DNA of 64,000 nt from Bacteroidota bacterium (GTDB taxonomy: Bacteria > Bacteroidota > Bacteroidia > Bacteroidales > FEN-979). Shown here in pieces: positions 3,686 through 56,162 of the stretch. Below the pieces are notes generated by a model that did no database searches, was not told the origin of the DNA, and worked only from the letters and a program-made list of their open reading frames with translations. The DNA lies in NCBI GenBank assembly GCA_026391835.1, contig JAPLDF010000075.1, positions 310,001-374,000 on the forward strand. The letters are read 5' to 3'. The translations under genes and the position numbers were made by a program. Position 1 is the stretch's first letter, and each line of letters begins with the position of its first letter.

Positions 3686-3754
3686 GCACTTAACACTTAA
3701 CACTTAACACTTAACACTTAACACTTAACACTTAACACTTAATACTTAACACTT
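3686..3754. repeat. Heptamer tandem array (CACTTAA unit)
   Basis: About ten near-perfect copies of a 7-bp unit (CACTTAA), with one copy altered to TACTTAA, lie directly between the two transketolase half-genes. The array makes up practically the whole 76-bp spacer inside what should be one operon. Confidence 0.95.
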
Positions 3755-4600
3755 CTAATTATCTACTGTTTCGTCAAGTTCCCTCGTAAAATCACCCACC
3801 TGCTCCTTCGCAGGTACTTTGCCATGCCACCTGTAATCACCTTCAATGCTTCGGATCCCTTTTCCCATGATGGTTCGGGCAATAATTACAGATGGTTTGT
3901 TTTTTACAGCTTCTGCCTTTGCAAAGGCATTCAGTATTGCTTCCATATTGTTCCCGTCACATTCAATGACCTCCCACCCGAAAGCTGACCATTTTTCCGG
4001 CAGCGGTTCAAGGTTCATGACATCCTCAGTTCTCCCGTCAATCTGCAGGCCGTTGCGGTCGACAATGGCGGTGAGGTTATCAAGCCGGTGATGTGCGGCC
4101 GACATGGCAGCTTCCCATATCGAGCCCTCCTGCAGCTCCCCGTCGCCGTGGATGCTGAATATCCTGTGGGGTTTGTGATCCATTTTTGCCGCAAGGGCCA
4201 TTCCGACTGCAACCGACAGTCCCTGTCCAAGCGAACCGGCGGATAGTTCAAGTCCCGGCAACCCGTGGTCCCTGCCGGGATGGCCCTGCAGCCTGCTTCC
4301 CAGTTTTCGCAGGGTGGCAAGTTCTTCGACCGGGAAATAACCCGAATGGGCCAGGGTGGCGTACAATACCGGGGCAACATGCCCGATGCTGAGGATCACC
4401 CTGTCGCGGCCCGGGCTGCCGGGGTGGGAGGGATCGTGTGTCAGTACAGAAAAATAAAGTGCTGTGAAGATATCAGCCAGCCCGAGTGAACCGCCAAGAT
4501 GCCCGGACCCGGCTTCGGCAAGACTGGCAACAACCGATTTCCGGATGCGTATGGCAATCTCCCGGAGTTCTTCTGGGTTTGTGGTTTGCCGGGAATGCAT
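3755..4600 (-). CDS. Transketolase, N-terminal (TPP-binding) subunit
   Basis: The 281 residues match the N-terminal half of transketolase. Visible are GSGHLGGSLG (31-40), SIGHVAPVLYA, LSAGSLGQGLSVAVGMA (about 119-134) and the TPP/magnesium motif GDGELQEGS (152-160) with the following asparagine in DRNGLQIDG (181-189). It pairs with the downstream C-terminal subunit in transferring two-carbon units between sugar phosphates. The gene lies two bases downstream of the LolA-like gene on the same strand, so all three may be cotranscribed. Split transketolases are well known in archaea and many anaerobic bacteria. Confidence 0.92.
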   Translation of the reverse strand: MHSRQTTNPEELREIAIRIRKSVVASLAEAGSGHLGGSLGLADIFTALYFSVLTHDPSHPGSPGRDRVILSIGHVAPVLYATLAHSGYFPVEELATLRKLGSRLQGHPGRDHGLPGLELSAGSLGQGLSVAVGMALAAKMDHKPHRIFSIHGDGELQEGSIWEAAMSAAHHRLDNLTAIVDRNGLQIDGRTEDVMNLEPLPEKWSAFGWEVIECDGNNMEAILNAFAKAEAVKNKPSVIIARTIMGKGIRSIEGDYRWHGKVPAKEQVGDFTRELDETVDN

Positions 4601-4602
4601 GG

Positions 4603-5238
4603 TTAACGCATGTCAATGACCTCTACCCCGGGGAATTTCTTCGCATCAAATGTGAAATCGGCATCGGTGACCGGTGTATCCGTCAGGTATGTTTTCACTT
4701 TATAGGTGAAGGTATTCCCGCTTTTATCGTAAAGGGTGAAACTCTTAATTTGCTTTTTTGTTTTGTCGATGCCAAGGATGGCTTTTGTGAAGTTTTTGCT
4801 CGTGTTGGGAATCAGCTCAACCGCTTCTGCCGAAGGATCGGCACTTTTGATGATTTTTGATTTGTAATTTGAGTTGTAGGAAGTAAGCAGTTTCGATGGG
4901 GTAAGCGCATCATCCTTGTTTTCCAGGGCATTCACCTGCACTTCGTTCGACTCCTTGATATAGGTCCAGATCGTTTTTCCGTCGCAGATCACGGTCTGAC
5001 CCGCGGCCGACATCCTGTACTTATCTCCCGAAACCAGCAGCGACACGGTTTTTTCTTCGTTGATGTTTGCCTTTGTGTTCACCATCGAATAGGACAAATC
5101 TACCTTGATGGATTTAAATGATTTTGCCTTTTTACTCACTTCCTCAAGAAGTGCGGAAGCCTTGGTGTCCTTTGCCTGGCTGAAGGCGATGATCGCCGTG
5201 AAAATAAACAGGCTGCCTAAGATGGTTCTCAATTTCAT
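4603..5238 (-). CDS. lolA: LolA-like outer-membrane lipoprotein carrier protein
   Basis: The protein of 211 residues begins at an internal ATG (5238). The upstream 13 codons precede a clean signal peptide, MKLRTILGSLFIFTAIIAFS, and were dropped. The mature part has the LolA-type pattern with SFKSIKVDLSYSM, then ICDGKTIWTYIKESNEVQVN (a beta-barrel strand pair) and the ending FTFDAKKFPGVEVIDMR. LolA ferries lipoproteins across the periplasm in a hydrophobic barrel. The position directly behind ftsK is a common Bacteroidota arrangement. Family membership is by overall pattern rather than catalytic residues. Confidence 0.85.
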   Translation of the reverse strand: MKLRTILGSLFIFTAIIAFSQAKDTKASALLEEVSKKAKSFKSIKVDLSYSMVNTKANINEEKTVSLLVSGDKYRMSAAGQTVICDGKTIWTYIKESNEVQVNALENKDDALTPSKLLTSYNSNYKSKIIKSADPSAEAVELIPNTSKNFTKAILGIDKTKKQIKSFTLYDKSGNTFTYKVKTYLTDTPVTDADFTFDAKKFPGVEVIDMR

Positions 5239-5315
5239 TGTAGCTGGGTTGAATGGAGTGTATTTTATATTTTGCAAATGTCCCCGGGAATCAGCATGAC
5301 CGGGGACGGGTTACT

Positions 5316-7829
5316 TTATTTTTGTCCCAGGATGGAAAGATACTCCTCAAGAGAAGAAAGATCCTTGTACCTGACATCGCGGGCTTTACTTCCCTCGAAC
5401 GGACCGACGATTCCGGCTGCTTCGAGCTGGTCGATGATACGGCCGGCACGGTTGTAGCCAAGTTTGAGCTTGCGCTGGATCAGGGATGTTGATCCGTGCT
5501 GGTGATTCACCACAAGCCGTGCTGCTTCTCCGAAAAACTCATCCTTTTCATTGGCATTGAATTCCTTTGGAGATGAACCGCTCTCCTCGTCGAAATACTC
5601 CGGCAGGGCGAACGCCTCCGGGTAGCCCCGCTGCGATCCGATGAACTCGGTGAGCCTGTCGATCTCAGGGGTGTCCACAAATGCACACTGGATGCGGATA
5701 AGGTCACTTCCCGTCGACAGCAGCATATCACCCCTGCCGATCAGCTGGTCGGCTCCCGAAGAGTCGAGAATCGTGCGGGAGTCAATTTTGGAAATAACCC
5801 GGAATGCGATACGTGCCGGGAAGTTGGCCTTGATGGTACCGGTAATGATGTTCACCGAAGGCCGCTGGGTTGCGATGATAAGATGGATGCCGGTTGCCCG
5901 CGCCAGCTGTGCCAGGCGTGCCAGAGGGGTCTCTATTTCCCGGCCGGCTGTCATGATCAGGTCGGCAAACTCATCGATCACGATCACGATGTACGGCAGG
6001 AACTGGTGCCCGTCGTTCGGGTTGAGCTTGCGTGAAAAGAACTTCTCATTGTACTCCTTGATGTTCCTCACCTGGGCATCACGCAACAGGTCGTAGCGGC
6101 TGTCCATTTCGATGTTCAGGGAGTTGAGCGTCCTGATCACCTTTTTGGTATCGGTGATGATCGCCTCTTCGGCGTCGGGAAGCTTAGCCAGGAAGTGACG
6201 TTCGATCTTGTTGTAGAGTGTGAGTTCAACTTTCTTGGGGTCGATCAGCACAAACTTAACCTGCGACGGGTGCTTCTTGTAGAGCAGTGAGGTGATGATC
6301 GTATTGAGTCCCACCGATTTGCCCTGCCCGGTCGCCCCGGCCATCAGCAGGTGGGGCATCTTTGCCAGGTCGGCGATAAATGTTTCGTTCGAGATGGTTT
6401 TTCCGAGTACGAATGGCAGTTCAAAGGTGGTATTCTTAAATTTGTCGGTTCCCAGGAGTGATTTGATCGAAACGATCTCCGGGTTTTGATTGGGCACTTC
6501 AATGCCGATGGTTCCTTTTCCGGGGATGGGGGCGATGATGCGGATACCCATTGCTGCAAGGCTCAGGGCGATGTCGTCTTCCAGGTTTTTTATCCTTGAA
6601 ATTCGAACGCCTGCTTCCGGAACTATTTCGTAAAGTGTAACGGCGGGCCCTATGGTCGCCTTGATCTTGGCTATTTTAATATCGTAGTTCGAGAGGGTGT
6701 TGACAATTTTGTCCTTGTTGGCTTCGAGCTCTTCTTTGTTGACATTTACCGATTCTCCGCCATAATCGCTGAGCAGGTCGAGCGGGGGATATTTGTAACC
6801 GGAAAGATCGAGGGTAGGATCATAGCGGGTTTCCAGCGTCTGGTGTTCAATGATGCCCGTTGCGGCAGGCTCTTCAGGGGCTGGCTCGATCTGCAGCTCG
6901 AGATCATTCGGAACATCAGGTTTCGGGGCAAACCGTGAAGGTAATTCCAGCTCAATTTCCTTTGTTTCCGGTTCATCGGGTTCCTTCATGAAATTCACAG
7001 GGATGGCTGGTGGCAGGTCGGTCTCAGGCTCAGTTGGCTCCGCGTTTTCGGTGACAGAAGCTGTCGCAGCCAAATTACCCACCGGCACTTCTTTATTCAC
7101 TTTAGCTTTAAACCAGCGAAACGGGATGTTGAAGGACAGGATCAGGAAGCTGAGTGCCGTGAACCCCAGCAGCATGGCCTGGCCTGATGTTCCGAGGAAT
7201 TCGGTAAGCCAGATGTTCAGCTGAAAACCATAGATCCCTGCAAGCAGGTCATTGCCGGGCACCACCAGTGCCAGCAGGATGGGCAGCCAGATAATTCCAA
7301 AAAAACAGTATTCCAGGGTTTTCCAGATCGGGAAGATGGTTATGTGGAAAAAGTGTTTCATCCCCGTGTTGAAGAGGATGATCACAAAGAAATAGGAGGC
7401 AACCCCAAACCATTTTGTGATGAACAGGTAGCCGGTGAGCGCACCGATCTTCCCCATCAGGTTCTCAACCGGGATCTTGTTCTCAAAGAAAGCATCAAAG
7501 GTAAAATGCTTGAATACGGTATCGGTAAAACTGTAATCAGTCTGCCAGGTCAGAATATACGAGGAAAAGGAAAGAAGCAGGTAAAATGAGGTGAGCAGCG
7601 AGAAAAGTCCGAAAACCCGGAAACGCCGCTCAAGACGTGCCTGATCCTGTTCGGTACGCACCTTTTTTTCTTTGGGTGGTTTGGGTACCCGGGCAGGTTT
7701 TTCTTTCTTTTCCCTTGTCTTTTTTACCTTGGTTTCAGGAACAACCGGAAGGTCGACAGACAGGATTTCTTCGTCCTTCGGTTCTCCCTTAAAAGTGTTT
7801 GATCTGGGCGGATTGATTGGTCGGGCCAT
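5316..7829 (-). CDS. ftsK: DNA translocase FtsK/SpoIIIE
   Basis: The 837-residue protein has a basic N-terminal tail, about four or five membrane segments between residues 70 and 240, an acidic proline-rich linker (about 250-340), then the RecA-like motor. Walker A reads GATGQGKSVG near residue 497 and Walker B reads VIVIDEFADL near 612. The C-terminal winged-helix gamma domain contains GSTSLIQRKLKLGYNRAGRI, which in FtsK reads the KOPS polarity sequences. It pumps the chromosome terminus at the division septum and activates XerCD. It sits in a minus-strand run between the DUF4412-like gene and lolA. Confidence 0.97.
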   Translation of the reverse strand: MARPINPPRSNTFKGEPKDEEILSVDLPVVPETKVKKTREKKEKPARVPKPPKEKKVRTEQDQARLERRFRVFGLFSLLTSFYLLLSFSSYILTWQTDYSFTDTVFKHFTFDAFFENKIPVENLMGKIGALTGYLFITKWFGVASYFFVIILFNTGMKHFFHITIFPIWKTLEYCFFGIIWLPILLALVVPGNDLLAGIYGFQLNIWLTEFLGTSGQAMLLGFTALSFLILSFNIPFRWFKAKVNKEVPVGNLAATASVTENAEPTEPETDLPPAIPVNFMKEPDEPETKEIELELPSRFAPKPDVPNDLELQIEPAPEEPAATGIIEHQTLETRYDPTLDLSGYKYPPLDLLSDYGGESVNVNKEELEANKDKIVNTLSNYDIKIAKIKATIGPAVTLYEIVPEAGVRISRIKNLEDDIALSLAAMGIRIIAPIPGKGTIGIEVPNQNPEIVSIKSLLGTDKFKNTTFELPFVLGKTISNETFIADLAKMPHLLMAGATGQGKSVGLNTIITSLLYKKHPSQVKFVLIDPKKVELTLYNKIERHFLAKLPDAEEAIITDTKKVIRTLNSLNIEMDSRYDLLRDAQVRNIKEYNEKFFSRKLNPNDGHQFLPYIVIVIDEFADLIMTAGREIETPLARLAQLARATGIHLIIATQRPSVNIITGTIKANFPARIAFRVISKIDSRTILDSSGADQLIGRGDMLLSTGSDLIRIQCAFVDTPEIDRLTEFIGSQRGYPEAFALPEYFDEESGSSPKEFNANEKDEFFGEAARLVVNHQHGSTSLIQRKLKLGYNRAGRIIDQLEAAGIVGPFEGSKARDVRYKDLSSLEEYLSILGQK

Positions 7830-14933: not shown

Positions 14934-15016
14934 ACCCTGTCACCCTGTTACCCTGTCACCCTGTTACCCTGTCACCCTGTTACCCTGTCACCCTGTCACC
15001 CTGTTACCCTGTCACC
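14934..15016. repeat. Octamer tandem array (CCCTGTCA/CCCTGTTA)
   Basis: About ten copies of CCCTGTYA, mostly alternating C and T at the seventh position, begin a few bases after the nusB stop and end about 85 bp before porQ. There are no spacers, so this is not a CRISPR array. Confidence 0.95.
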
Positions 15017-33061: not shown

Positions 33062-33136
33062 GGTGAACGGGTAAACGGGTGAACGGGTGAACGGGTAAAC
33101 AGGTGAACGGGTGAACGGGTAAACGGGTGAACGGGT
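33062..33136. repeat. Octamer tandem array (GGTGAACG/GGTAAACG)
   Basis: About nine copies of an 8-bp unit GGTRAACG fill nearly the whole gap between the two KAS-type genes of one operon. Variation is mainly G/A at one position. Confidence 0.95.
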
Positions 33137-42450: not shown

Positions 42451-42588
42451 TGTCCGCCTGTCCGCCCGTCCGCCTGTCCGCCCGTCCGCCTGTCCGCCCG
42501 TCCGCCTGTCCGCCCGTCCGCCTGTCCGCCCGTCCGCCTGTCCGCCCGTCCGCCCGTCCGCCTGTCCGCCCGTCCGCCTGTCCGCTTT
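42451..42588. repeat. Octamer tandem array (CGCCTGTC/CGCCCGTC)
   Basis: About seventeen copies of the 8-bp unit CGCCYGTC run without spacers up to about 30 bp before aroQ. It is the longest octamer array in the window and lies between the riboswitch leader and aroQ. Confidence 0.95.
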
Positions 42589-45990: not shown

Positions 45991-46107
45991 TGCTTTCGAT
46001 ACACACACACACACATTTATCGGATCAATCGGAATTTCTGGGGGGAAGTCTATTTATCCTGAAACTTAGTAATCGTACTTTAAATCTTGGTGCTGAAAGA
46101 CATATGT

Positions 46108-46899
46108 TCAGTCCTTGTAGTACGCTTTCTTCAAAAAGTCATCCACAGACTTGGCAATCCTGGTCCTTGCCGCTATCCCAACATGGATCGACTCCACATC
46201 AATACGTTCGTCAGCATTGCAGATGTGGTCGTCATACATATTATCTGTACTGGCCCTCTTCCCATGGGAATAAGTAAACCTTTCAAAGGTATTGTCTACC
46301 CGCAGTAATATCGTATCTATCTGCCCTGCGGTATTGCGGCAAGGAAGAAGGATCTCGGTCCAGGCATGGTTGTCGGGAGCGACCACCCTGGCATCGAATT
46401 TCATGATGGACAGCAGACATGCAAAGGCCATCTCCCGCTCGGAGCACCATCCGAAGCTTGCAAACGGTTCGATACCTGGGTAGCCATACTTTTCAGTACT
46501 CCCAACCATGTCACCCAGGAATCTGCAGGGGATACGCAAGCCCCCGGTGGCATAACGATTAAGTTCACCATTCACGGTGATCTTCATTCGGGGGTTCGGG
46601 TTGTTGTAATTCCAAAAATAGGGTATGTTCAGAATAGCCCCCCTGACCCCGTCTTTGCAGGTACCCACGGTAAACAGCTTGTGCATAAGAATAAGGGTGA
46701 AGAAATCGGCTTTGGTTGCCGAATCCTGTGCGCGTAGATCAAGTTGAGTCAGGAAATCCTTATACTGGTATTCATACCTGGCCGCTATCTGCGGCAGGCG
46801 GGTGCTGCAAAGATTCATAAAAAAAATGTCAATCGAAGGATCCTGGGCCTGGCAAGTTAAGGCCAGGACGGTAAAAGCGATGATTAGGACTTTTTTCAT
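46108..46899 (-). CDS. Secreted transglutaminase-like protein (Cys-His-Asp triad candidate)
   Basis: The 263-residue protein has a signal peptide ending LTCQAQ near residue 19. I see a transglutaminase/papain-like order of residues: C152 in SFGWCSEREMAFACLL, H178 in APDNHAWTEILL, and D202 in LLRVDNTFERF, which fits a Cys-His-Asp triad of a transglutaminase-like domain. Related folds act as peptidases or amidases. The remaining N-terminal 130 residues have no match I recognise. It is divergent from the hypothetical gene at 47148. Not a named family that I can verify. Confidence 0.6.
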   Translation of the reverse strand: MKKVLIIAFTVLALTCQAQDPSIDIFFMNLCSTRLPQIAARYEYQYKDFLTQLDLRAQDSATKADFFTLILMHKLFTVGTCKDGVRGAILNIPYFWNYNNPNPRMKITVNGELNRYATGGLRIPCRFLGDMVGSTEKYGYPGIEPFASFGWCSEREMAFACLLSIMKFDARVVAPDNHAWTEILLPCRNTAGQIDTILLRVDNTFERFTYSHGKRASTDNMYDDHICNADERIDVESIHVGIAARTRIAKSVDDFLKKAYYKD

Positions 46900-47046
46900 G
46901 GCAGCAGGTTTATTGAAAAACGCTTTATTTTATGGATATTGTTGCCAGGACATAATGCATTTTGTCTTGTAAGGGAGAAATTTCAGAATAAGACTTCCCT
47001 CTGTCACACTCATAAGTCGCCAGGGTCTTAATAAAATAGCACCAAA

Positions 47047-47054
47047 TACATTTG
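47047..47054 (+). promoter_or_regulatory. Possible -7 box for the gene at 47148
   Basis: TACATTTG (TAnnTTTG) lies 93 nt before the ATG. No -33 box was seen. Confidence 0.3.
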
Positions 47055-47147
47055 CAAATTGCAATTATTCCTTTTATTGTCCGTTATCAATAAAACCCCG
47101 CTTATGGCATGAGTCTACTTTTTTGAACCATCAAAAAAGCATCTTTT

Positions 47148-47840
47148 ATGAACACTCATCCATCGGTTGCTATCTTGCCATTTCTCCTCTTTTTGGTTGC
47201 GGCAACCACTGGTTTCGGCCAGCCATCTTCAAAAGAACAAATTTCCACCCCCGACTCGGGAACCTTTTTCCTGTATGTCAATTATTGCGGGAACCATTAT
47301 AACCGGGTCACCCGGGGGAATGAAATGGTCATTAATATCTTAAAACTCCCCGGGAACCTGCTGGAAAAGATGCCACGCCTGGAAGACGACGGGCAATATT
47401 CATCCAGGAACCGCAAGATCTCCATGAAACAGCAGAAGATCATCCGGAAGGTTAACGGAGAGAGAATGATGGTCCGGGTAAACAGGAATAAGTTCAATGT
47501 CTTTTACCCGAAGGGTCTGAAAAGAGGGTTTATCATTGAAAGTGATGAATTCAACCGCTGGAACTTCCAGGAAAAAGAACCGCCGGTTTTAGCTCCCCCG
47601 AATAACCCTGAACGTAATAATATAGACTGGTATTGGTATGAAGCCGATCTGGTAATGGAAGACCTTGCTCCCATGGGACTTTATGTGGAGAATGGCAGGC
47701 AGTTGCGGCAAATGAACACCCGAAAAGGTAAGACCAATTTTACTTGTGATATTATACGCCCTTACCATGCTGATGGGATCCTGTTCAGTCAACGCTCCGG
47801 TGGAATCTGCCAGCCAAAACGAAAAAGATACATTGGCTGA
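47148..47840 (+). CDS. Hypothetical secreted protein
   Basis: This 230-residue protein has a signal peptide (about 1-24, ending TTGFGQ). The mature part is basic and hydrophilic, with FLYVNYCGNHYNRVTRGNEM, IIRKVNGERMMVRVN and DWYWYEADLVMEDLAPMGLY. I recognise no family. The last 32 codons overlap the start of the next open frame in a different phase, so the natural C-terminus could be shorter if a frameshift is present. Codon use otherwise looks ordinary. Confidence 0.55.
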   Translation: MNTHPSVAILPFLLFLVAATTGFGQPSSKEQISTPDSGTFFLYVNYCGNHYNRVTRGNEMVINILKLPGNLLEKMPRLEDDGQYSSRNRKISMKQQKIIRKVNGERMMVRVNRNKFNVFYPKGLKRGFIIESDEFNRWNFQEKEPPVLAPPNNPERNNIDWYWYEADLVMEDLAPMGLYVENGRQLRQMNTRKGKTNFTCDIIRPYHADGILFSQRSGGICQPKRKRYIG

Positions 47841-48319
47841 AAGCCCTGGCAACACCAAAGATGGATCGGATGGATATGCAATCAACATTGTATCACCTGA
47901 TGTAATCTTATTACGGAAGTATAGTTATGTCGAAGCAAACAGCAGGGAGGATGCCGCTGATGGATATCCGGCATATGCCAATTATATCAAACGGTATCTA
48001 AAGGCAGACACGATCATTGGCGATTTTAACGGGGATGGGAAATTGGAAAAAGCATGGTTTAAAACATTAATCCCAATTCCTGTAATGATTGCCTGGAGCA
48101 TATGGACAAGAAATCATGCAAAGGGATCATTCAGTTTTCAGAAAAGCGTATCCTGCTCCAATTGAAAAGGACACCGCCAGGAAAGGGGACACCATTATAC
48201 GGGAATCTATGCTGGGATACACTGATACAAACCCAAACCATAAAACACCACCGGAATATACAAATTTATCCTCTTGTTCATCAGGGAATGTGGTTGAATA
48301 TCAGGTGAAATTGAAGTGA
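47746..48319 (+). pseudogene. Decayed lipoprotein gene with frameshifts
   Basis: The first frame begins with a lipoprotein signal, MILYALTMLMGSCSVN, with the lipobox Cys at about residue 13. It continues to VIGDFNGDGK-like IIGDFNGDGKLEKAW and then degenerates. A second frame picks up a plausible continuation near 48078 (CNDCLEHMDKKSCKGIIQ, then FSEKR), and a third near 48150 ends SSGNVVEYQVKLK. The shifting of plausible peptide among frames suggests a pseudogene or sequencing errors. The start overlaps the end of the preceding gene. Confidence 0.5.
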
Positions 48320-48535
48320 AAATTCACCCCCCATCTAATTATTGAATATCAATAATATATGATAGTCAACAGAAATAGGCTGAGAGCGGTCTGTGCTCCG
48401 ATTTTACACCTGAACGACTCTCCGGAAACATTCCATTGATTTTTACCCCTCGAGCTGGCAAATCTACATGACAGTCTGAGCATGGACGAATCATGGTCCT
48501 TACTTGGGCCTTATATGGAGGATAAACGGTAAAAC

Positions 48536-48650
48536 CATGGTGAGAGGATGGAAAAGCATGGTAACAGGATGGAAAAGCATGGTAAAAGGATGGAAAAGCA
48601 TGGTAACAGGATGGAGAAGCATGGTGAAAACATGGAGAAGCATGGTGAAC
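48536..48650. repeat. 21-bp minisatellite, 5.5 copies
   Basis: The unit is CATGGTAACAGGATGGAAAAG with variants. Five full copies plus a half copy are present. The matching array in copy B (50097-50190) has only 4.5 copies. Confidence 0.93.
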
Positions 48651-48708
48651 CACCAGCCTTATCCCCCCGTGCCGGGCCATGCAATAATGGTGCAGGGAAT
48701 GTCATTTT

Positions 48709-48736
48709 GTAGGGACACGCCATGGCGTGTCCCCAC
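48709..48736. repeat. GTAGGG palindrome (copy A)
   Basis: GTAGGGACACGCCATGGCGT plus GTCCCCAC forms a near-perfect inverted repeat around CCATGG. It is followed by short GTGTCCCCACCA-type repeats (to about 48790). Confidence 0.85.
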
Positions 48737-48991
48737 ACCATATGTGTCCCCACCAACAGGCATATTCCCACCAACAGGCATATTCCCACGGTTACCATCA
48801 CCGAAAATCCCAATGCGATCACCCGCAAATAGTATGTTTTAACGATCACATCCAATCGGAAGTGCCGGTACAATCATTTTTTTCATGACCGGCAGATTGC
48901 AGGATTTGTAAGATACCCGGGATGATTTTATTCAATTGGTATAAAAGTATAACTTTTTCATTACTTCTTATAAAAATGTCGTTGATATGTG

Positions 48992-48999
48992 TATATTTG
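48992..48999 (+). promoter_or_regulatory. Probable -7 box for the gene at 49086
   Basis: TATATTTG (TAnnTTTG) lies 86 nt before the start codon; the same box occurs at the equivalent place in copy B. Confidence 0.5.
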
Positions 49000-49085
49000 C
49001 TACATATAACTGATATTGAGTCTATTGTGTTATGTGAAAGCCATAACTTATAACCGTTAATAAATTCACAAATAAATCATTAGCC

Positions 49086-49826
49086 ATGAAAAGAAGTATT
49101 GTATTCCTAATCGCCCTGATGATCGCTGGTATCCATACGATTGCCCAGGTGGCCATTAATGCCGACAACAGCGCACCGGATAATTCGGCGATGCTGGATG
49201 TGAAATCTACGAGTAAAGGTTTTTTGCCTCCAAGAATGACCACCACCCAGCGCGATGCAATTACCCAGCAAGCAGCAGGTCTTACCATTTACAATACCAC
49301 CAAAAACTGCAATGAAACCTATAATGGTTCCTCCTGGGTTTGCAATACGCATTACATTGGTGAAAGCTATGGCGGTGGCATCGTGTTTTATGTATATGAT
49401 AACGGACAGCACGGGTTAATTGCAGCAACGGCCAATCAAAGTCAAAGTATGCAGTGGTACAATGGAACATATAGAACTACGGGTACTGCCGGCGACGGGG
49501 TAAATGCTGGTACCATGAATACGGCAATGATTGTTGCTACACAAATGGCAGATAACCAATCTGGTGATTTTGCTGCGAAAATTTGTGCAGATTATTCAGT
49601 AACGGTTGGTGGTGTTACCTATGGCGATTGGTACTTACCTTCAAAGTATGAACTGAATTTATTGTATATACAAAGAACTGTAGTTGGCGGTTTTGATATT
49701 AGCGACTATTGGAGTTCCTCTGAGTACAATTCTATCGTGGCGTCTTACAAGGACTTTCTCAATGGCGACCAGGACTATCTCAGTAAGAACTTCGGATGCG
49801 CGGTACGGGCTATTCGGGCTTTTTAA
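49086..49826 (+). CDS. Secreted Lcl C-terminal (DUF1566-like) protein
   Basis: The 246-residue protein has a signal peptide ending HTIAQ at residue 21. It has the Bacteroidota fibre-like N-terminal segment AINADNSAPDNSAMLDVKST and GFLPPRMTTTQRDAI. The C-terminal domain contains YGGGIVFYVYDNGQHGLIAA, DWYLPSKYELNLLY, then SDYWSSSEYN and VRAIRAF. This Lcl/DUF1566 pattern (DWYLPS, YWSSSE, VRAIR) relates to carbohydrate-binding or lectin-like folds. The first 42 residues are almost identical to those of the 50710 protein. There is no T9SS sorting domain. Confidence 0.8.
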   Translation: MKRSIVFLIALMIAGIHTIAQVAINADNSAPDNSAMLDVKSTSKGFLPPRMTTTQRDAITQQAAGLTIYNTTKNCNETYNGSSWVCNTHYIGESYGGGIVFYVYDNGQHGLIAATANQSQSMQWYNGTYRTTGTAGDGVNAGTMNTAMIVATQMADNQSGDFAAKICADYSVTVGGVTYGDWYLPSKYELNLLYIQRTVVGGFDISDYWSSSEYNSIVASYKDFLNGDQDYLSKNFGCAVRAIRAF

Positions 49827-50096
49827 CAATTTATAAATTATTGCATAACTGGAAAAACGCTCACCTTTTCCTATCTTCGCCGGAGCGATCCTCCACCATC
49901 TAATTGTTGAATGTCATTAATATATGATACTCAGCAGAAACAGGCAGAGAGCGGTCCGTGGCCCCGTTTTTACACCTGAACGATTCTCCCGAAACATTCC
50001 ATTGATTTTTACCCGTCGAGCTAATTACATGACAGTCTGAGCATGGACGAATCATGGTCCTTACTTGGGCCTTATATGGAGGATAAACGGTAAAAC

Positions 50097-50190
50097 CATG
50101 GTGAGAGGATGGAAAAGCATGGTAACAGGATGGAAAAGCATGGTAACAGGATGGAGAAGCATGGTGAAAATATGGAGAAGCATGGTGAAC
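50097..50190. repeat. 21-bp minisatellite, 4.5 copies
   Basis: It has the same unit as at 48536, with four full copies plus a half. Confidence 0.93.
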
Positions 50191-50248
50191 CACCGGCCTT
50201 ATCCCCCCGTTCCGGGCCATGCAATAATGGTGCAGGGAATGTCATTTT

Positions 50249-50275
50249 GTAGGGCCATGCCATGGCATGGCCTAC
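50249..50275. repeat. Extra GTAGGG palindrome present only in copy B
   Basis: GTAGGGCCATGCCATGGCAT plus GGCCTAC reads nearly the same on both strands. It occurs where copy A has a single different palindrome, so it looks like an inserted REP-like unit. Confidence 0.85.
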
Positions 50276-50295
50276 CGGCAACCGGTAATAATCCG

Positions 50296-50323
50296 GTAGG
50301 GACACGCCATGGCGTGTCCCCAC
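50296..50323. repeat. GTAGGG palindrome shared with copy A
   Basis: GTAGGGACACGCCATGGCGT plus GTCCCCAC is identical to 48709-48736. It is followed by 18-bp CACCATnTGTGTCCCCAC repeats, three copies against one in copy A. Confidence 0.85.
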
Positions 50324-50616
50324 ACCATATGTGTCCCCACCACCATGTGTGTCCCCACCACCATCTGTGTCCCCACCAACAGGCATATTCCCGCCATCAT
50401 CCATTTCCTCCCAATTACCCTCACCGAAAATTCCAATGCGATCACCCGCAATTGGTATTTTTTAACGATCAAATCCAACCAGAAGTGCCGGTATAATCAA
50501 TTTTTTTCATACCCGCCATATAGCAGGTGTTATGAGGTCCCCAGAATGATTTTATTGAATTAGTATAAAATATATAACTTTTTCATTACTTCTTATAAAA
50601 ATGGCGTTTATATGTG

Positions 50617-50624
50617 TATATTTG
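50617..50624 (+). promoter_or_regulatory. Probable -7 box for the gene at 50710
   Basis: TATATTTG (TAnnTTTG) lies 86 nt before the ATG, at the same distance as in copy A. Confidence 0.5.
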
Positions 50625-50709
50625 CTATGTAACTGATATTGAGCTTATTGTGTTATGTGAAAGCCATAACTTAAAAGCCGTTAATAAATTCACAAATAAC
50701 TGATTAGCC

Positions 50710-53700
50710 ATGAAAAGAAGTGTTGTATTCCTGTTCGCACTGATGATCGCTGGTATCCATACGTTTGCCCAGGTGGCCATTAATGCCGACAACAGCGCGC
50801 CGGATAATTCGGCGATGCTGGATGTGAAATCTACAGAAAGGGGATTGCTGCCTCCCCGTATGACGCATGCCCAGATGAATGCCATTGCAAACCCGGCAAG
50901 CGGACTGATCATCTATTGCACCGATTGCAGTAACTCCGGTAGCGGGGCGCTGGCCATGTTTGTCATCGACAAATGGTACATATTCGCCCCCACCTGCCTG
51001 TTGCCGCTCTTCCCGTCGGCTGGCATTCATGTTCCTGCACCTGCCGCGATTACCTGGAACTGGAACCCGGTGACGGATGCCACCGGTTACAGGTGGAATA
51101 CGGCCAATGATTACGCCACGGCCTCCGACATCGGCAGTGCCACAACCAAAACTGAAACAGGACTTGCCTGCAATACGGCCTACACACGCTTTGTATGGTC
51201 TTATAATAATTGCGGGTATTCGTCGCCCGCACTGCTCACGCAAACTACTCCACTGGAACCTCCATCAACCCCCGCCGCCGGAACCCATGTTGCATTGGGA
51301 ACACAGATCACATGGAACTGGGACACGGTTGCAGGCGCCATGGGCTATAAATGGAACACAACGAATAACTATGCTGCGGCCATCGATATGGATACGGTTA
51401 CCACCTGGATCGAAACCGGGCTCACCTGCAACACGGCTTACACCCGTTTTGTATGGGCATACGGCGCTTGCGGGTACTCCGCACCTGTGATCCTCACAGC
51501 ATCCACTACCATGATCCAGCCACCCTTGCCGGTACCGGGAACCCATGTAGCCTCACCGAATGCAATTGTGTGGAACTGGCAGCCCTACAGCAATATTACC
51601 GGGTTTAAATGGAATACGTCAAATGATTACAATACTGCCATTGATATGGGACTGGCTACAACCAGATCCGAATCCGGACTGGTATGCAATACCGCCTATT
51701 CACGGTTTTTATGGTCCTACAACAACTGCGGTGTGTCACTGCCTGTTACATTGACACAATCAACCACCGGTACTGTTGTATATGCCCCGGCAGCAGGCAT
51801 ACATATTGCATCTTCCTACCAGGTCGTGTGGAACTGGGATACCGTTCCGGGCGCAGCAGGATATAAATGGGGCGCCACGAACGATTACACTTCGGCCACC
51901 AACATGGACACTGCAACAACCAGAACCGAAACCGGGCTGGCCTGCAACACGGCTTACACCCGCTATGCATGGGCTTACAACAACTGCGGCAATTCGCCCC
52001 CTGTGGTCCTGACCCAGGCAACCACCGTTTGCCCGGTTACCTGCGGTGCTTCCATCACCATCAGCCATGTGGCCGGACTCGTGGCCCCTGTAACCAAAAC
52101 CGTCACTTACGGGATTGTAACGAATATCCCGGGAGAACCGGCAAAATGCTGGATTTCAAGCAACCTGGGCGCCGACCACCAGGCAACTTCGGTTTCAGAT
52201 GCTACCGAGCCATCTGCAGGCTGGTACTGGCAGTTTAACCACAAACAGGGATACAAGCATACCGGTTCAGTCAGAACGCCCAATAGTACCTGGATATATC
52301 CCATCGATGAAAATCTCAACTGGCAGGCTGCAAACGACCCGTGTACCATTGAACTTGGAAGTGGCTGGCGTATCCCGACTTCCACCGAGTGGACCAACGT
52401 GGATACCATTGGCAACTGGACCAATTGGAATGGCCCTTATGCCTCTGCGTTAAAACTCCATGTGGCCGGAATGCTGGACTATAACACTGGTTCGCTCATA
52501 GCCCGGGGCTCTTATGGTTACTACTGGAGTAATGAACAGGATGGTACCAATGCAGGTTGGTATTGGTTTTTTTATAATACCTCCAGCTATATAATAGGCA
52601 GCGTCAAGTCGTATGCTTTTTCAGTTCGCTGCATCAAAGAACCCTGTTCTTCTGTGCCGAATGATCCAACTCCGGGTACGCAAATGCCTTCTGCAACCCA
52701 GATCATCTGGAACTGGAGCACTGTTGCCGGTGCTACCGGATATAAATGGAATATGACCAATGATTTTGGTACTGCGACCGACATGGGAAATGTGACAACT
52801 AAAACTGAGGCAGGGTTGACCTGCAATACGGCTTATACACGGTATTTATGGGCTTACAATGAATGCGGCAATTCCACTCCCGTAGTCCTGAACCAGGCAA
52901 CCGCTGTTTGCCCGGTAACCTGCGATGCTTCCATCACCATCAACCATGTGGCTGGAAACGTAGCCCCGGTTGCCAAAACCGTCACTTACGGGATTGTTAC
53001 AAATGTCGCGGGAGAACCGACAAAATGCTGGATTTCAAGCAACCTTGGCGCCGACCACCAGGCAACCTCGGTTTCTGATGCGACAGAACCATCGGCTGGC
53101 TGGTACTGGCAGTTTAACCGCAAACAGGGGTACAAACATACCGGTTCGCTCAGGACACCCAACAGCACCTGGATCTACCCGATAAGTGAAGACCATACCT
53201 GGGAAGTTGCCAACGATCCATGCACCATAGAACTTGGAGGCGGCTGGCGGATTCCAACCAATACCGAATGGACCAATGTAAAGACAGGTGGAAACTGGAC
53301 AAACTGGAACGGCCCTTATGGCTCTGCGTTAAAACTCCATGCATCCGGCTACCTATACTATAGCAATGGTTCATTGCAGTATCGCGGCTCTGGTGGCTAC
53401 TATTGGAGCAGGACGCAATACGACGCCACCCAGGGCGATTTCTTCGTGTTCAACAGCACCTCCTGCGATGCGGGCCCCAACTTCAAGGCGCTCGGTTTTC
53501 CCTTGCGCTGCATCAGGGAAACCTGTTCTTCGGCAACGGTTGCCCCGACTTCCGGCACGCATACGCCATCACAAACGCAGGTTACATGGAACTGGAATGC
53601 TGTGACGGAGGCCATCGGGTATAAATGGAATACGACCAATGATGTTGGTTCTGCGACCGACCTGGGCACCGCCACAACCAAAACCGAAACCGGGCTGACC

Positions 53701-54408
53701 TGCAATACGGCGTATACCCGGTATGTTTGGGCATACAACGGCTGTGGCAACTCCACCGCGCTCGTATTGAACCAGTCAACTTCGGCTTGCCCGGTTCCCT
53801 GTGGCTCTTCCGTCACCATCAACCATACGGCCGGAACCGTGGCTCCTGTAACCAAAACTGTCACATACGGGATTGTTACAAACATCGCGGGTGAACCCAC
53901 AAAATGCTGGATTTCAAGCAACCTTGGCGCCGACCACCAGGCTGTTGCCAAAAGCGACACCAGCGAACCATCTGCAGGATGGTACTGGCAGTTTAACCGC
54001 AAGCAAGGGTACAAGGTTGTTGGTACAACCCGCACGCCCAATACCCCCTGGATAAACCCGATAACTGAAAACCTTAGCTGGCAGGCTGCCAACGATCCCT
54101 GCACGCTGGAGCTTGGCGGTGGCTGGAGGATCCCGACCGCTACGGAATGGACAAACGTGGATGCAAGCGGAAACTGGAATGACTGGAACGGTCCATGGAA
54201 CTCCGGGTTAAAAATGCACGCGGCCGGGATCCTTGCCGACACCGATGGTTCACTGCTCCTGCGCGGCACTGGCGGTTATTATTGGACCGGTTCGACGAAC
54301 AATGAAACGTACGGCTGGAATTTTGTCTTCAGCGTCGGAGGCAGTTTAATGCGCGACAATTGCCTGAAAGCATACGGGTTGCCGGTTCGCTGCATCAGAA
54401 ACTTATGA
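50710..54408 (+). CDS. Large secreted modular FISUMP protein with Fn3-like repeats
   Basis: The 1232-residue protein begins with a signal peptide (ending HTFAQ) and the shared 42-residue N-terminus. Four Fn3-like units follow (each about 85 residues, with WNWN, GYKWNT, TETGL and CNTAYTRFVW), then three composite units, each a further Fn3-like unit plus a FISUMP-type domain (GEPTKCWISSNLGADHQA, GWYWQFNRKQGYK, NDPCTIELGGGWRIPT). The composite units lie about 51775-52650, 52651-53529 and 53530-54408 and look recently amplified. No T9SS sorting domain is visible. A surface or secreted role is inferred. Confidence 0.82.
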   Translation: MKRSVVFLFALMIAGIHTFAQVAINADNSAPDNSAMLDVKSTERGLLPPRMTHAQMNAIANPASGLIIYCTDCSNSGSGALAMFVIDKWYIFAPTCLLPLFPSAGIHVPAPAAITWNWNPVTDATGYRWNTANDYATASDIGSATTKTETGLACNTAYTRFVWSYNNCGYSSPALLTQTTPLEPPSTPAAGTHVALGTQITWNWDTVAGAMGYKWNTTNNYAAAIDMDTVTTWIETGLTCNTAYTRFVWAYGACGYSAPVILTASTTMIQPPLPVPGTHVASPNAIVWNWQPYSNITGFKWNTSNDYNTAIDMGLATTRSESGLVCNTAYSRFLWSYNNCGVSLPVTLTQSTTGTVVYAPAAGIHIASSYQVVWNWDTVPGAAGYKWGATNDYTSATNMDTATTRTETGLACNTAYTRYAWAYNNCGNSPPVVLTQATTVCPVTCGASITISHVAGLVAPVTKTVTYGIVTNIPGEPAKCWISSNLGADHQATSVSDATEPSAGWYWQFNHKQGYKHTGSVRTPNSTWIYPIDENLNWQAANDPCTIELGSGWRIPTSTEWTNVDTIGNWTNWNGPYASALKLHVAGMLDYNTGSLIARGSYGYYWSNEQDGTNAGWYWFFYNTSSYIIGSVKSYAFSVRCIKEPCSSVPNDPTPGTQMPSATQIIWNWSTVAGATGYKWNMTNDFGTATDMGNVTTKTEAGLTCNTAYTRYLWAYNECGNSTPVVLNQATAVCPVTCDASITINHVAGNVAPVAKTVTYGIVTNVAGEPTKCWISSNLGADHQATSVSDATEPSAGWYWQFNRKQGYKHTGSLRTPNSTWIYPISEDHTWEVANDPCTIELGGGWRIPTNTEWTNVKTGGNWTNWNGPYGSALKLHASGYLYYSNGSLQYRGSGGYYWSRTQYDATQGDFFVFNSTSCDAGPNFKALGFPLRCIRETCSSATVAPTSGTHTPSQTQVTWNWNAVTEAIGYKWNTTNDVGSATDLGTATTKTETGLTCNTAYTRYVWAYNGCGNSTALVLNQSTSACPVPCGSSVTINHTAGTVAPVTKTVTYGIVTNIAGEPTKCWISSNLGADHQAVAKSDTSEPSAGWYWQFNRKQGYKVVGTTRTPNTPWINPITENLSWQAANDPCTLELGGGWRIPTATEWTNVDASGNWNDWNGPWNSGLKMHAAGILADTDGSLLLRGTGGYYWTGSTNNETYGWNFVFSVGGSLMRDNCLKAYGLPVRCIRNL
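51778..54408 (+). repeat. Three tandem composite Fn3+FISUMP coding units
   Basis: Each unit is about 880 bp, beginning at the Fn3-like TGGAACTGG-type words and ending with the VRCI-type FISUMP end. The first and second are very similar at the DNA level over much of their length; the third is more diverged. Confidence 0.85.
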
Positions 54409-54539
54409 GATGCCTGGTCGGGGTAATTTGCTGATGGATTCAATTATTGTGTAAATTTGAACAGCAAAGCAAAAATGCTGTCTCAAAAGCCTGAAACCCG
54501 GTTTTTGCAACAGCCTTCATACACAGGGAACAGGTTATT

Positions 54540-56162
54540 ATGAACAGCCAGCGGGTACCCGTCAGGAACAAGATACCGGGAATAATACTATTATTGATAA
54601 TCATGGTGGCCGGCGCATTCTACATGCGTTATACCTATGTGAAATTCGAAACCGACCAGGCCGATGATGTCATGGTGGTGGTCAGATCCATTGAAGCAAC
54701 CTTTCCCAAAGACGATTTAAAAGCACTTGAAGCAGCCCCGGGTGATACCGGAAAACCACAATACAGGCATATAAAGAGCATTCTCAGGGAGGTGATCCGT
54801 GTGAATGGGGAAGCACGATTTGCATATGTCATCCTTGAGCGGAACGGGAAAGTCTATTTTATCGCCGACTCGGAACCTGACAGCTCAAAGGACTGTTCAC
54901 CTCCGGGGCAGGAATACACCGAAGCCAAGGCAGAAGACAAACAGCCTTTCAGGGACGGGAAAGCGATCATTACGCATCCGTCCGCCGACAGGTGGGGGAC
55001 CTGGGTGAGCGCCCTGATCCCGATGAAGGATAAGACAACAGGGAGTACCATCGCCGTATTCGGCATGGATTACAGCGTAAAGACCTGGCACAGAATCATA
55101 TTGTTTGAAGTCGCCGAATCGGGCATGCTGGTCCTGCTGTTGCTGGTTGCTGCACTTTTTATTTTCAGGATCAGGGTGAAGAACAAATCCCTCCTCTATG
55201 AAATAGAAGAGCGTAAAAGGGCGGAGGATGAATTAATTGACCAGGAACACCGGTTCCGCCACCTGGTTGAATACTCTTCCGATATCCTTGTCTTCCTTGA
55301 TAAAGACGGGTTTCAACGGTATATAAGCCCTTCGGCCGAAAAAATCACCGGTTTCAAAGTTGAAGAACTTCAGAAATCATTTTTACAGGTTGTGCACCCC
55401 GATGATGCCGGGCGGGTTAAGCTCGCTTTCGAGGAACTGCTTATGAACCCCGATGGGATCCTGAAGGGGGAGTACAGGCATCAGCATAAAAACGGGGGTT
55501 TTCTCCATTTTGAAGCAGTAGGCCGGAATTTCCTGGGCGATCCGAATCTGAGAGGGCTGGTGGTCAATATCCGGGATGTTACCGAACGCAGGAAGGTGGA
55601 AGAATCCCTGTGGGAAAGTGAAGAAAAATACCGTACCATTGTTTCAAACACGTTTTCAATGATTTCAATGTTGGATATTGAAGGCAAATATATTTTTTGC
55701 AACCAGGCATATACCGACATTTTAGGTTACAGCCAGGATGAACTGATCGGTTTGCTTGCTTTCGATATCGTTCACCCTGATGAAAAGGAGTCGATAATTA
55801 AGTATTATCAGGATGCAATCCTGAATAATACCCTTGAAATTCCGGTCACTTTCAGGCTGGTCTGCAAGGACGGAAGTATAAAAATAGTGAATCACCGGGC
55901 CAAATTTTTGATTAACCAGGAACAAAAAGCGGATAAAATATTGCTGATTGCACAGGATATCACGGAACAGCGGAAAGCGGAGGAGAAACTGCAGCAAAGT
56001 GAAGCATTGTTCGTGGACGCACTGATAAAGAAATCACGCGAACTCCAGCATTTCAATGACCTGATGATCGGCAGGGAGATCCGCATGGTTGATCTTAAAA
56101 AGGAGGTCAACGAACTCCTGAAAAAGGCCGGTGAAGATGAAAAATATACCGTTCATTCATGA
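54540..56162 (+). CDS. Membrane PAS-PAS sensor without an output domain
   Basis: In this 540-residue protein one N-terminal membrane helix (about 13-31) and a second (about 194-215) enclose a 160-residue extracytoplasmic sensor. Two PAS domains follow: ILVFLDKDGFQRYISPSAEK near 259-278, with YRHQHKNGGFLHFEAVGRNF, and MISMLDIEGKYIFCNQAYTD near 376-395. The end is a coiled coil (LQHFNDLMIGREIRMVDLKK) that normally precedes a histidine kinase or GGDEF domain, but the gene stops shortly after it. No kinase or cyclase motif is present. Confidence 0.85.
   Translation: MNSQRVPVRNKIPGIILLLIIMVAGAFYMRYTYVKFETDQADDVMVVVRSIEATFPKDDLKALEAAPGDTGKPQYRHIKSILREVIRVNGEARFAYVILERNGKVYFIADSEPDSSKDCSPPGQEYTEAKAEDKQPFRDGKAIITHPSADRWGTWVSALIPMKDKTTGSTIAVFGMDYSVKTWHRIILFEVAESGMLVLLLLVAALFIFRIRVKNKSLLYEIEERKRAEDELIDQEHRFRHLVEYSSDILVFLDKDGFQRYISPSAEKITGFKVEELQKSFLQVVHPDDAGRVKLAFEELLMNPDGILKGEYRHQHKNGGFLHFEAVGRNFLGDPNLRGLVVNIRDVTERRKVEESLWESEEKYRTIVSNTFSMISMLDIEGKYIFCNQAYTDILGYSQDELIGLLAFDIVHPDEKESIIKYYQDAILNNTLEIPVTFRLVCKDGSIKIVNHRAKFLINQEQKADKILLIAQDITEQRKAEEKLQQSEALFVDALIKKSRELQHFNDLMIGREIRMVDLKKEVNELLKKAGEDEKYTVHS

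Follow-up and report, generated by a model that had tools for sequence, protein, structure and literature searches.

How do two neighbouring genes come to share a promoter, a leader and an export signal and then carry different bodies? We addressed this question in a window of 64,000 nucleotides (nt) from an uncultured Bacteroidota bacterium of Bacteroidales type (assembly GCA_026391835.1, contig JAPLDF010000075.1, here C86, positions 310,001 to 374,000; positions below are those of the window unless a contig or locus is named). The two genes are A (49086..49826, + strand, 246 aa) and B (50710..54408, + strand, 1232 aa). Both products are probably surface proteins: each has a signal peptide and an N-terminal module, followed in A by an Lcl_C/DUF1566-like C-terminal domain and in B by Fn3-like repeats and FISUMP domains. 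The explanation that we favour, with a probability of roughly 75%, is that homologous recombination within a tandem family of surface-protein genes made an A/B chimera, with its joint in conserved codons for an LDVKST motif, and that the same layout recurs in a sister species.

We first delimited what the two genes share. The shared 5' unit, defined in each case by alignment with the other copy and including the start of the gene, covers 48331-49210 (+) for A and 49896-50834 (+) for B, and the two align end-to-end over all 880 nt at 82% identity. Common to both are a leader, a 21-nt minisatellite (5.5 copies in A and 4.6 in B), a palindrome, a TATATTTG box, the signal peptide and residues 1-42. 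The non-coding part, made up of leader, minisatellite, palindrome array, promoter region and 5' untranslated region (UTR), lies at 48328..49085 (+) in A and 49893..50709 (+) in B; codons 1-42 lie at 49086..49211 (+) in A, with the joint (LDVKST) at their 3' end, and at 50710..50835 (+) in B. The promoter-like boxes (48992..48999 in A and 50617..50624 in B, both +) resemble the Bacteroidota promoter consensus TAnnTTTG. Counted over aligned, ungapped positions only, identity between A and B is 88% in the leader, 98.2% in the minisatellite block, 89% in the palindrome and its array, 84% in the middle segment, 94% in the promoter and 5' UTR and 95% in codons 1-42, and past GATGTGAAATCTAC it falls to about 55% (codons 43-85). 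With break positions expressed in nt relative to codon 44 (position 0), the likelihood-best break between A and B is at -4, with 93% identity to its left and 43% to its right.

These results bear out the preliminary description of the locus as a duplicated cassette as far as the position of both copies, their alignment and the list of common parts are concerned. Its statement that the proteins then "diverge completely" does not hold: residues 43-85 of A (49212..49340, +) and B (50836..50964, +) still align as protein and continue one N-terminal module of about 85 residues (SKGFLPPRMTTTQRDAI versus ERGLLPPRMTHAQMNAI). The C-termini of the bodies are also weakly related (hhalign probability 73% when the C-terminal ~54 residues of an Lcl-type body are compared with those of a FISUMP domain), in agreement with the HHsearch similarity between DUF1566 and Fib_succ_major given in an excerpt of PMC4159848.

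We then asked whether the two parts of each gene have the same nearest relatives. The second half of the module matches Lcl-bodied relatives in A and B-type relatives in B. In an ungapped comparison of the sequence beyond residue 42, A was matched by nine distinct relatives of A type (11 rows, with two genes appearing twice), which were 69-88% identical to A and 35-47% to B over residues ~63-80; eight relatives of the first 300 residues of B were 49-76% identical to B and 35-49% to A. In the signal-peptide segment, the 17 comparable rows were 24-60% identical to A and B. Upstream of the genes the picture is reversed. An all-against-all comparison of 60 module genes in this genome (1770 pairs) gave mean identities of 47% and 49% (standard deviation ~4) for the two 100-nt stretches before the start codon, against 80% and 90% for A and B; for the 100 nt directly before the start codon (mean 49%, standard deviation 3.9, A-B 90%), as for upstream identity generally, A-B is the extreme of all 1770 pairs, and its bodies give no blastp match. 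The only other pairs with at least 75% upstream identity join a gene at C29:68369 to two genes on C42 (82% and 78%), and there the bodies are 64-67% identical. Thus, the intergenic sequence, signal peptide and residues 1-42 of A and B share more recent ancestry than the remainder of the two genes. Within a gene, the nearest relatives change from one segment to the next, and identity changes sharply at the junction. Since residues 43 onward belong to two different sub-families and the 5' parts are of more recent common descent, one of the two genes is a chimera, joined in the LDVKST codons.

One of the relatives, a gene from the same genus (L220), does have a related 5' end. Its identity to A and B is 66-68% in the 100 nt preceding the start codon and 71-75% in the signal segment, and its protein has FISUMP (61%) and Fn3-like (53%) domains in an arrangement that differs from those of A and B. 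The L220 region (4001-6727) also encodes, in our reading of its sequence, phage-fibre-like repeats followed by a second module and Fn3-like and FISUMP domains. A match in G016:C165 (query 735-932, 70%) likewise extends upstream of codon 1.

The layout was next examined in the sister species G013 and in G014, both of the same genus as the genome studied here. In G013, the adjacent pair L320 is 79% identical upstream, 97% in the signal and 92% in the motif, then 51% and 46%, with a break at -7; the adjacent pair L347 is 85% identical upstream, 83% in the signal and 79% in the motif, then 56% and 43%, with a break at -10. Together with A-B at -4, this makes three strong joints, in two species, within 6 nt. 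The L320 and L347 tandem pairs carry 5' sequence other than that of A and B. The shared tract starts 66 nt past the upstream stop codon in A-B, 16-20 nt past it in L320 and ~15 nt past it in L347. When the three genomes were pooled, upstream identity reached 75% in 3 of 52 adjacent pairs, compared to 3 of 4434 others (P 2.9e-5). Mean identity peaks in the motif (0.75 at -20 to -8), and in all three genomes synonymous codons are biased at many, though not all, motif positions relative to the bodies of the same genes; TCG for Ser34, for example, has a frequency of 0.42-0.54 in the motif and 0.10-0.13 in the bodies. The LDVKST codons at the joint belong to the DNA segments with the highest similarity across the family. 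Pairs that share their 3' parts have many breaks at -30 to -73 and others near the start codon; these were not counted as evidence, because motif conservation alone can place a break there.

Several points weigh against the recombination explanation. G013 and G014 were chosen for their good matches, with 98 and 49 matches listed, and the fetched regions gave 65 and 40 open reading frames (ORFs), 63 and 39 of them anchored. The strong cases number three only, and the 75% threshold was picked after the data had been seen. L347 and L320 are less clean than A-B because their bodies retain identity, 56% over 930 aa and 36% over 407 aa respectively. Weaker pairs with shared 5' ends break elsewhere or at uncertain positions: L130/L134 at -53 or +83, L325/L340 at +6 or -54, L321/L343 at +27 and L321/L340 at +26. 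Among 741 pairs in G014 there was no 5'-shared pair of this kind. A point in favour comes from the 39 genes with Lcl or FISUMP bodies (21 of the 60 had neither and were excluded): body class agreed with that of the nearest neighbour by residues 43-85 in 32 of them (shuffle P 0.006) and with that of the nearest neighbour by residues 1-42 in 26 (shuffle P 0.30), but the failed concordance of residues 1-42 may reflect a lack of signal, as this segment includes the fast-changing signal peptide.

Of the origins offered in the preliminary description, gene conversion or segmental duplication is the one we favour. Recombination would have taken place between neighbouring or ectopic family members, mostly neighbours, and ended in conserved codons. 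It could have been a gene conversion in which the 5' end of one neighbour was copied onto the other, or a tandem duplication after which one body was replaced from another family member. The exchanged tract would run from just past the stop codon of the upstream gene to the conserved LDVKST codons, and a working promoter, leader and export signal would be retained while the ligand-binding body changes. We infer rather than observe the involvement of RecA, the direction of exchange and any benefit. As to direction, the available similarities suggest that the 5' unit more likely came from B, because similarity to a fragment on contig C41 reaches ~40 nt further upstream in B (to 49853) and because L220 has a FISUMP body.

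The non-coding parts also bear on the age of the event. Outside the minisatellite block (48463..48703, + in A, comprising the 21-nt repeat and its flank), non-coding identity between A and B is 83.6-93.7%, and the block differs at 4 of 219 positions compared to 58 of 508 in the remaining non-coding parts (Fisher P 4e-6). With ~11% of positions substituted in non-coding sequence other than the block, the exchange is old, and it has no obvious continuation. The block itself may have arisen by later conversion or be under sequence constraint; the identity among its four genomic copies (88-96%) exceeds that of the A/B flanks, which could reflect either constraint or recent spread. An attempt to date the event by synteny, using the neighbouring PAS gene, established no shared locus, the best matches in relatives being 33-55% identical.

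Interlocus gene conversion and the mosaic paralogues that it produces are known from tandem gene families. The A/B locus is like these in its patchwise identity, its adjacent paralogues and its junctions in conserved DNA; however, it is a promoter-leader-signal head that is exchanged here and not the body, and the strong junctions coincide to within 6 nt across two species. In the literature searched we found no description of such 5'-sharing, which does not prove its absence. A bolder version of the recombination reading, which we put forward tentatively and regard as rather unlikely, is that the LDVKST codons are a standing recombination joint: the motif DNA would stay alike across tens of genes partly because tandem neighbours repeatedly swap promoter-plus-signal heads and lectin-like bodies, without a dedicated recombinase, and thereby build a repertoire of exported binders.

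Could the locus instead be a plain tandem duplication of a whole gene, with bodies that diverged fast under selection and 5' ends that stayed alike, and with no exchange between sub-families? A and B are indeed adjacent and head-to-tail, and ordinary duplicates are known in the module family (the C5 pair and the L313 pairs). However, it is non-coding DNA that has been conserved here while coding DNA past codon 42 is no more alike than the family background, the two bodies have separate sets of relatives whose 5' ends are different ones, and identity drops abruptly at the junction. We therefore consider this explanation improbable.

Still less probable is an active antigen- or phase-variation locus that repeatedly attaches the 5' expression unit to different bodies; the preliminary description had mentioned an antigen-variation-like locus as one option. 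Two bodies stand behind one promoter type in a large family, and the 98%-identical block, set in non-coding sequence of 89% identity, could have arisen by recent conversion. However, each gene has its own complete 5' unit and an open frame, and the copies differ by ~11% outside the block. Inverted repeats of at least 30 nt are absent from 46000-56000. Phage_integrase (PF00589) has no match in the window (C86:310001-374000), other recombinase families not having been searched genome-wide; of its 13 matches in the genome, the nearest on this contig lies ~85 kb before the window, and a Pfam scan of nine neighbouring ORFs found no recombinase. With the only reverse transcriptases in the genome being of group II intron type, the idea of a switching locus thus found no support.

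The preliminary description had further regarded the 5' unit as a portable cassette, which led us to ask how widespread it is. The whole 880-bp unit occurs in this genome at A and B only, and it was absent among the matches listed for 60 relatives (6 candidates per genome scored). The condition under which the description would have given way to an ordinary local duplication, that the unit exist only here, is thus close to what was found, and a dispersed 880-bp cassette was rejected, since elsewhere there are only non-coding fragments. One of these, on C41, is ~320 nt long and stops 66 nt before an ORF with an exported-protein-like start; two others, on C72 and C32, are each flanked by the 3' ends of ORFs. 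Of the minisatellite block there are 4 genomic copies, and 2 of 40 relatives have weak matches to it. Single palindromes also occur elsewhere: the perfect 22-nt palindrome GGGACACGCCATGGCGTGTCCC, found in A at 48712..48733 and in B at 50299..50320 (no strand applies), occurs at 7 sites over 5.35 Mb, and 5 of these are exact. One might read the 5' unit as a mobile or repetitive element that inserts before genes, given these fragments, the ORF behind the one on C41 and the dispersed palindrome. However, the shared segment runs into codons 1-42, which no fragment contains, the fragments on C72 and C32 have gene 3' ends on both sides, and whole copies number only two, so we rate this possibility marginally lower again than a switching locus. 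What survives of the portable-cassette claim is a looser statement: the C41 fragment before an exported-like ORF, the related 5' end of L220 and the G013 tandem pairs that switch at the same codons indicate that 5' ends and bodies recombine within this module family.

Hardly credible is the last alternative, that a diversity-generating retroelement (DGR) shapes A and B, because, although DUF1566 and Fib_succ_major domains are reported as DGR targets (excerpt of PMC4159848; DUF1566 also in an excerpt of PMC6642488), a DGR would not swap 5' ends, the only two RVT_1 matches in this genome (96.74% complete) are both above the cut-off for group II intron reverse transcriptase/maturase, leaving no DGR-type reverse transcriptase, and the own-genome matches listed contained no template repeat or high-identity second copy of the 3' end of A (the 3' end of B was not searched as DNA). 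A candidate DGR on C32 was discarded when the reverse transcriptase beside a FISUMP gene proved to be of group II intron type; this reverse transcriptase/maturase lies directly downstream of the FISUMP gene, which bears the module (the two are at L131 6853-8103 and L131 8696-9616).

In contrast to the 880-bp unit, the N-terminal module is common. With E up to 10 allowed, this genome gave 73 matches to it, 71 of which had an E of 1.1e-4 or lower, and the fetched regions hold 73 domains in 61 ORFs. The family here thus comprises about 60 genes, in which one ~85-residue module stands on different bodies. In public genomes the module was found at no fewer than 77 kept loci, 76 with Bacteroidota titles, the genera named in these presumably belonging to Bacteroidota, and one titled Alphaproteobacteria. 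It is also present in 6 viral contigs and in 9 phage records (3 of the 9 representing one phage). The phage proteins (phrog_1325) match parts of residues 10-98 at 40-61% identity, and three of the records are annotated as tail or tail-fibre-like protein. On the contig of A and B, a further module gene contains an in-frame TAG within the module (G000:C86:230291-230527). In a large family of exported proteins, with tens of genes per genome, fronts and bodies have separate histories, and orthology or annotation taken from the promoter or N-terminus will mislead. If this is true across the genus, the swapping of binding bodies while the expression and export head stays fixed would be measurable from genomes alone.

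The body domains named in the preliminary description stand for B, whose FISUMP match is above cut-off and which has Fn3-like repeats, and are only partly upheld for A. Residues 158-244 of A match Lcl_C (PF07603) at 25.8 bits, short of the Pfam cut-off of 34.9, and the N-terminal module lies outside the Lcl_C family. The predicted model of A (mean pLDDT 73, residues 15-47 below 50) matches the solved Lcl C-terminal domain 8q4e (Foldseek E 4e-10) and the fimbrial protein 4eps (E 9e-4). By its sub-threshold profile score and good predicted fold match to 8q4e, the body of A is Lcl_C-like only. B passes both FISUMP cut-offs (TIGR02145, at 48.7 bits versus 41.65, and PF09603) and differs from other FISUMP proteins in adding Fn3-like repeats and the N-terminal module. 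Its three FISUMP repeats, with boundaries set by us, lie at 52018-52659, 52897-53538 and 53776-54405 (span 52018..54405, +); the second and third are 72% and 64% identical to the first, and the profile search reported one of the three as a stretch.

We also analyzed the non-coding sequence for structure and the surroundings of the two genes. The palindrome arrays fold better than shuffled sequence (z -2.5 and -2.4), and for the 5' UTRs and the flank of the minisatellite folding does not exceed that of shuffles (z -0.38, -0.59 and -0.06). A leader RNA family was rejected, the one Rfam match found in a scan of 47000-51000 (E up to 1) being far under the gathering score and to a human-type family. 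Tandem arrays with periods of 7-8 nt occur at 3687-3754, 14934-15016, 33062-33136 and 42451-42585, mostly inside the gaps that separate ORFs or at their margins, and the 21-nt array found in A and B is one among many. Just upstream of the A unit, in 47148-48319, two overlapping ORFs in different frames (47148-47840 and 47746-48165), neither with a Pfam match, are possibly one broken gene.

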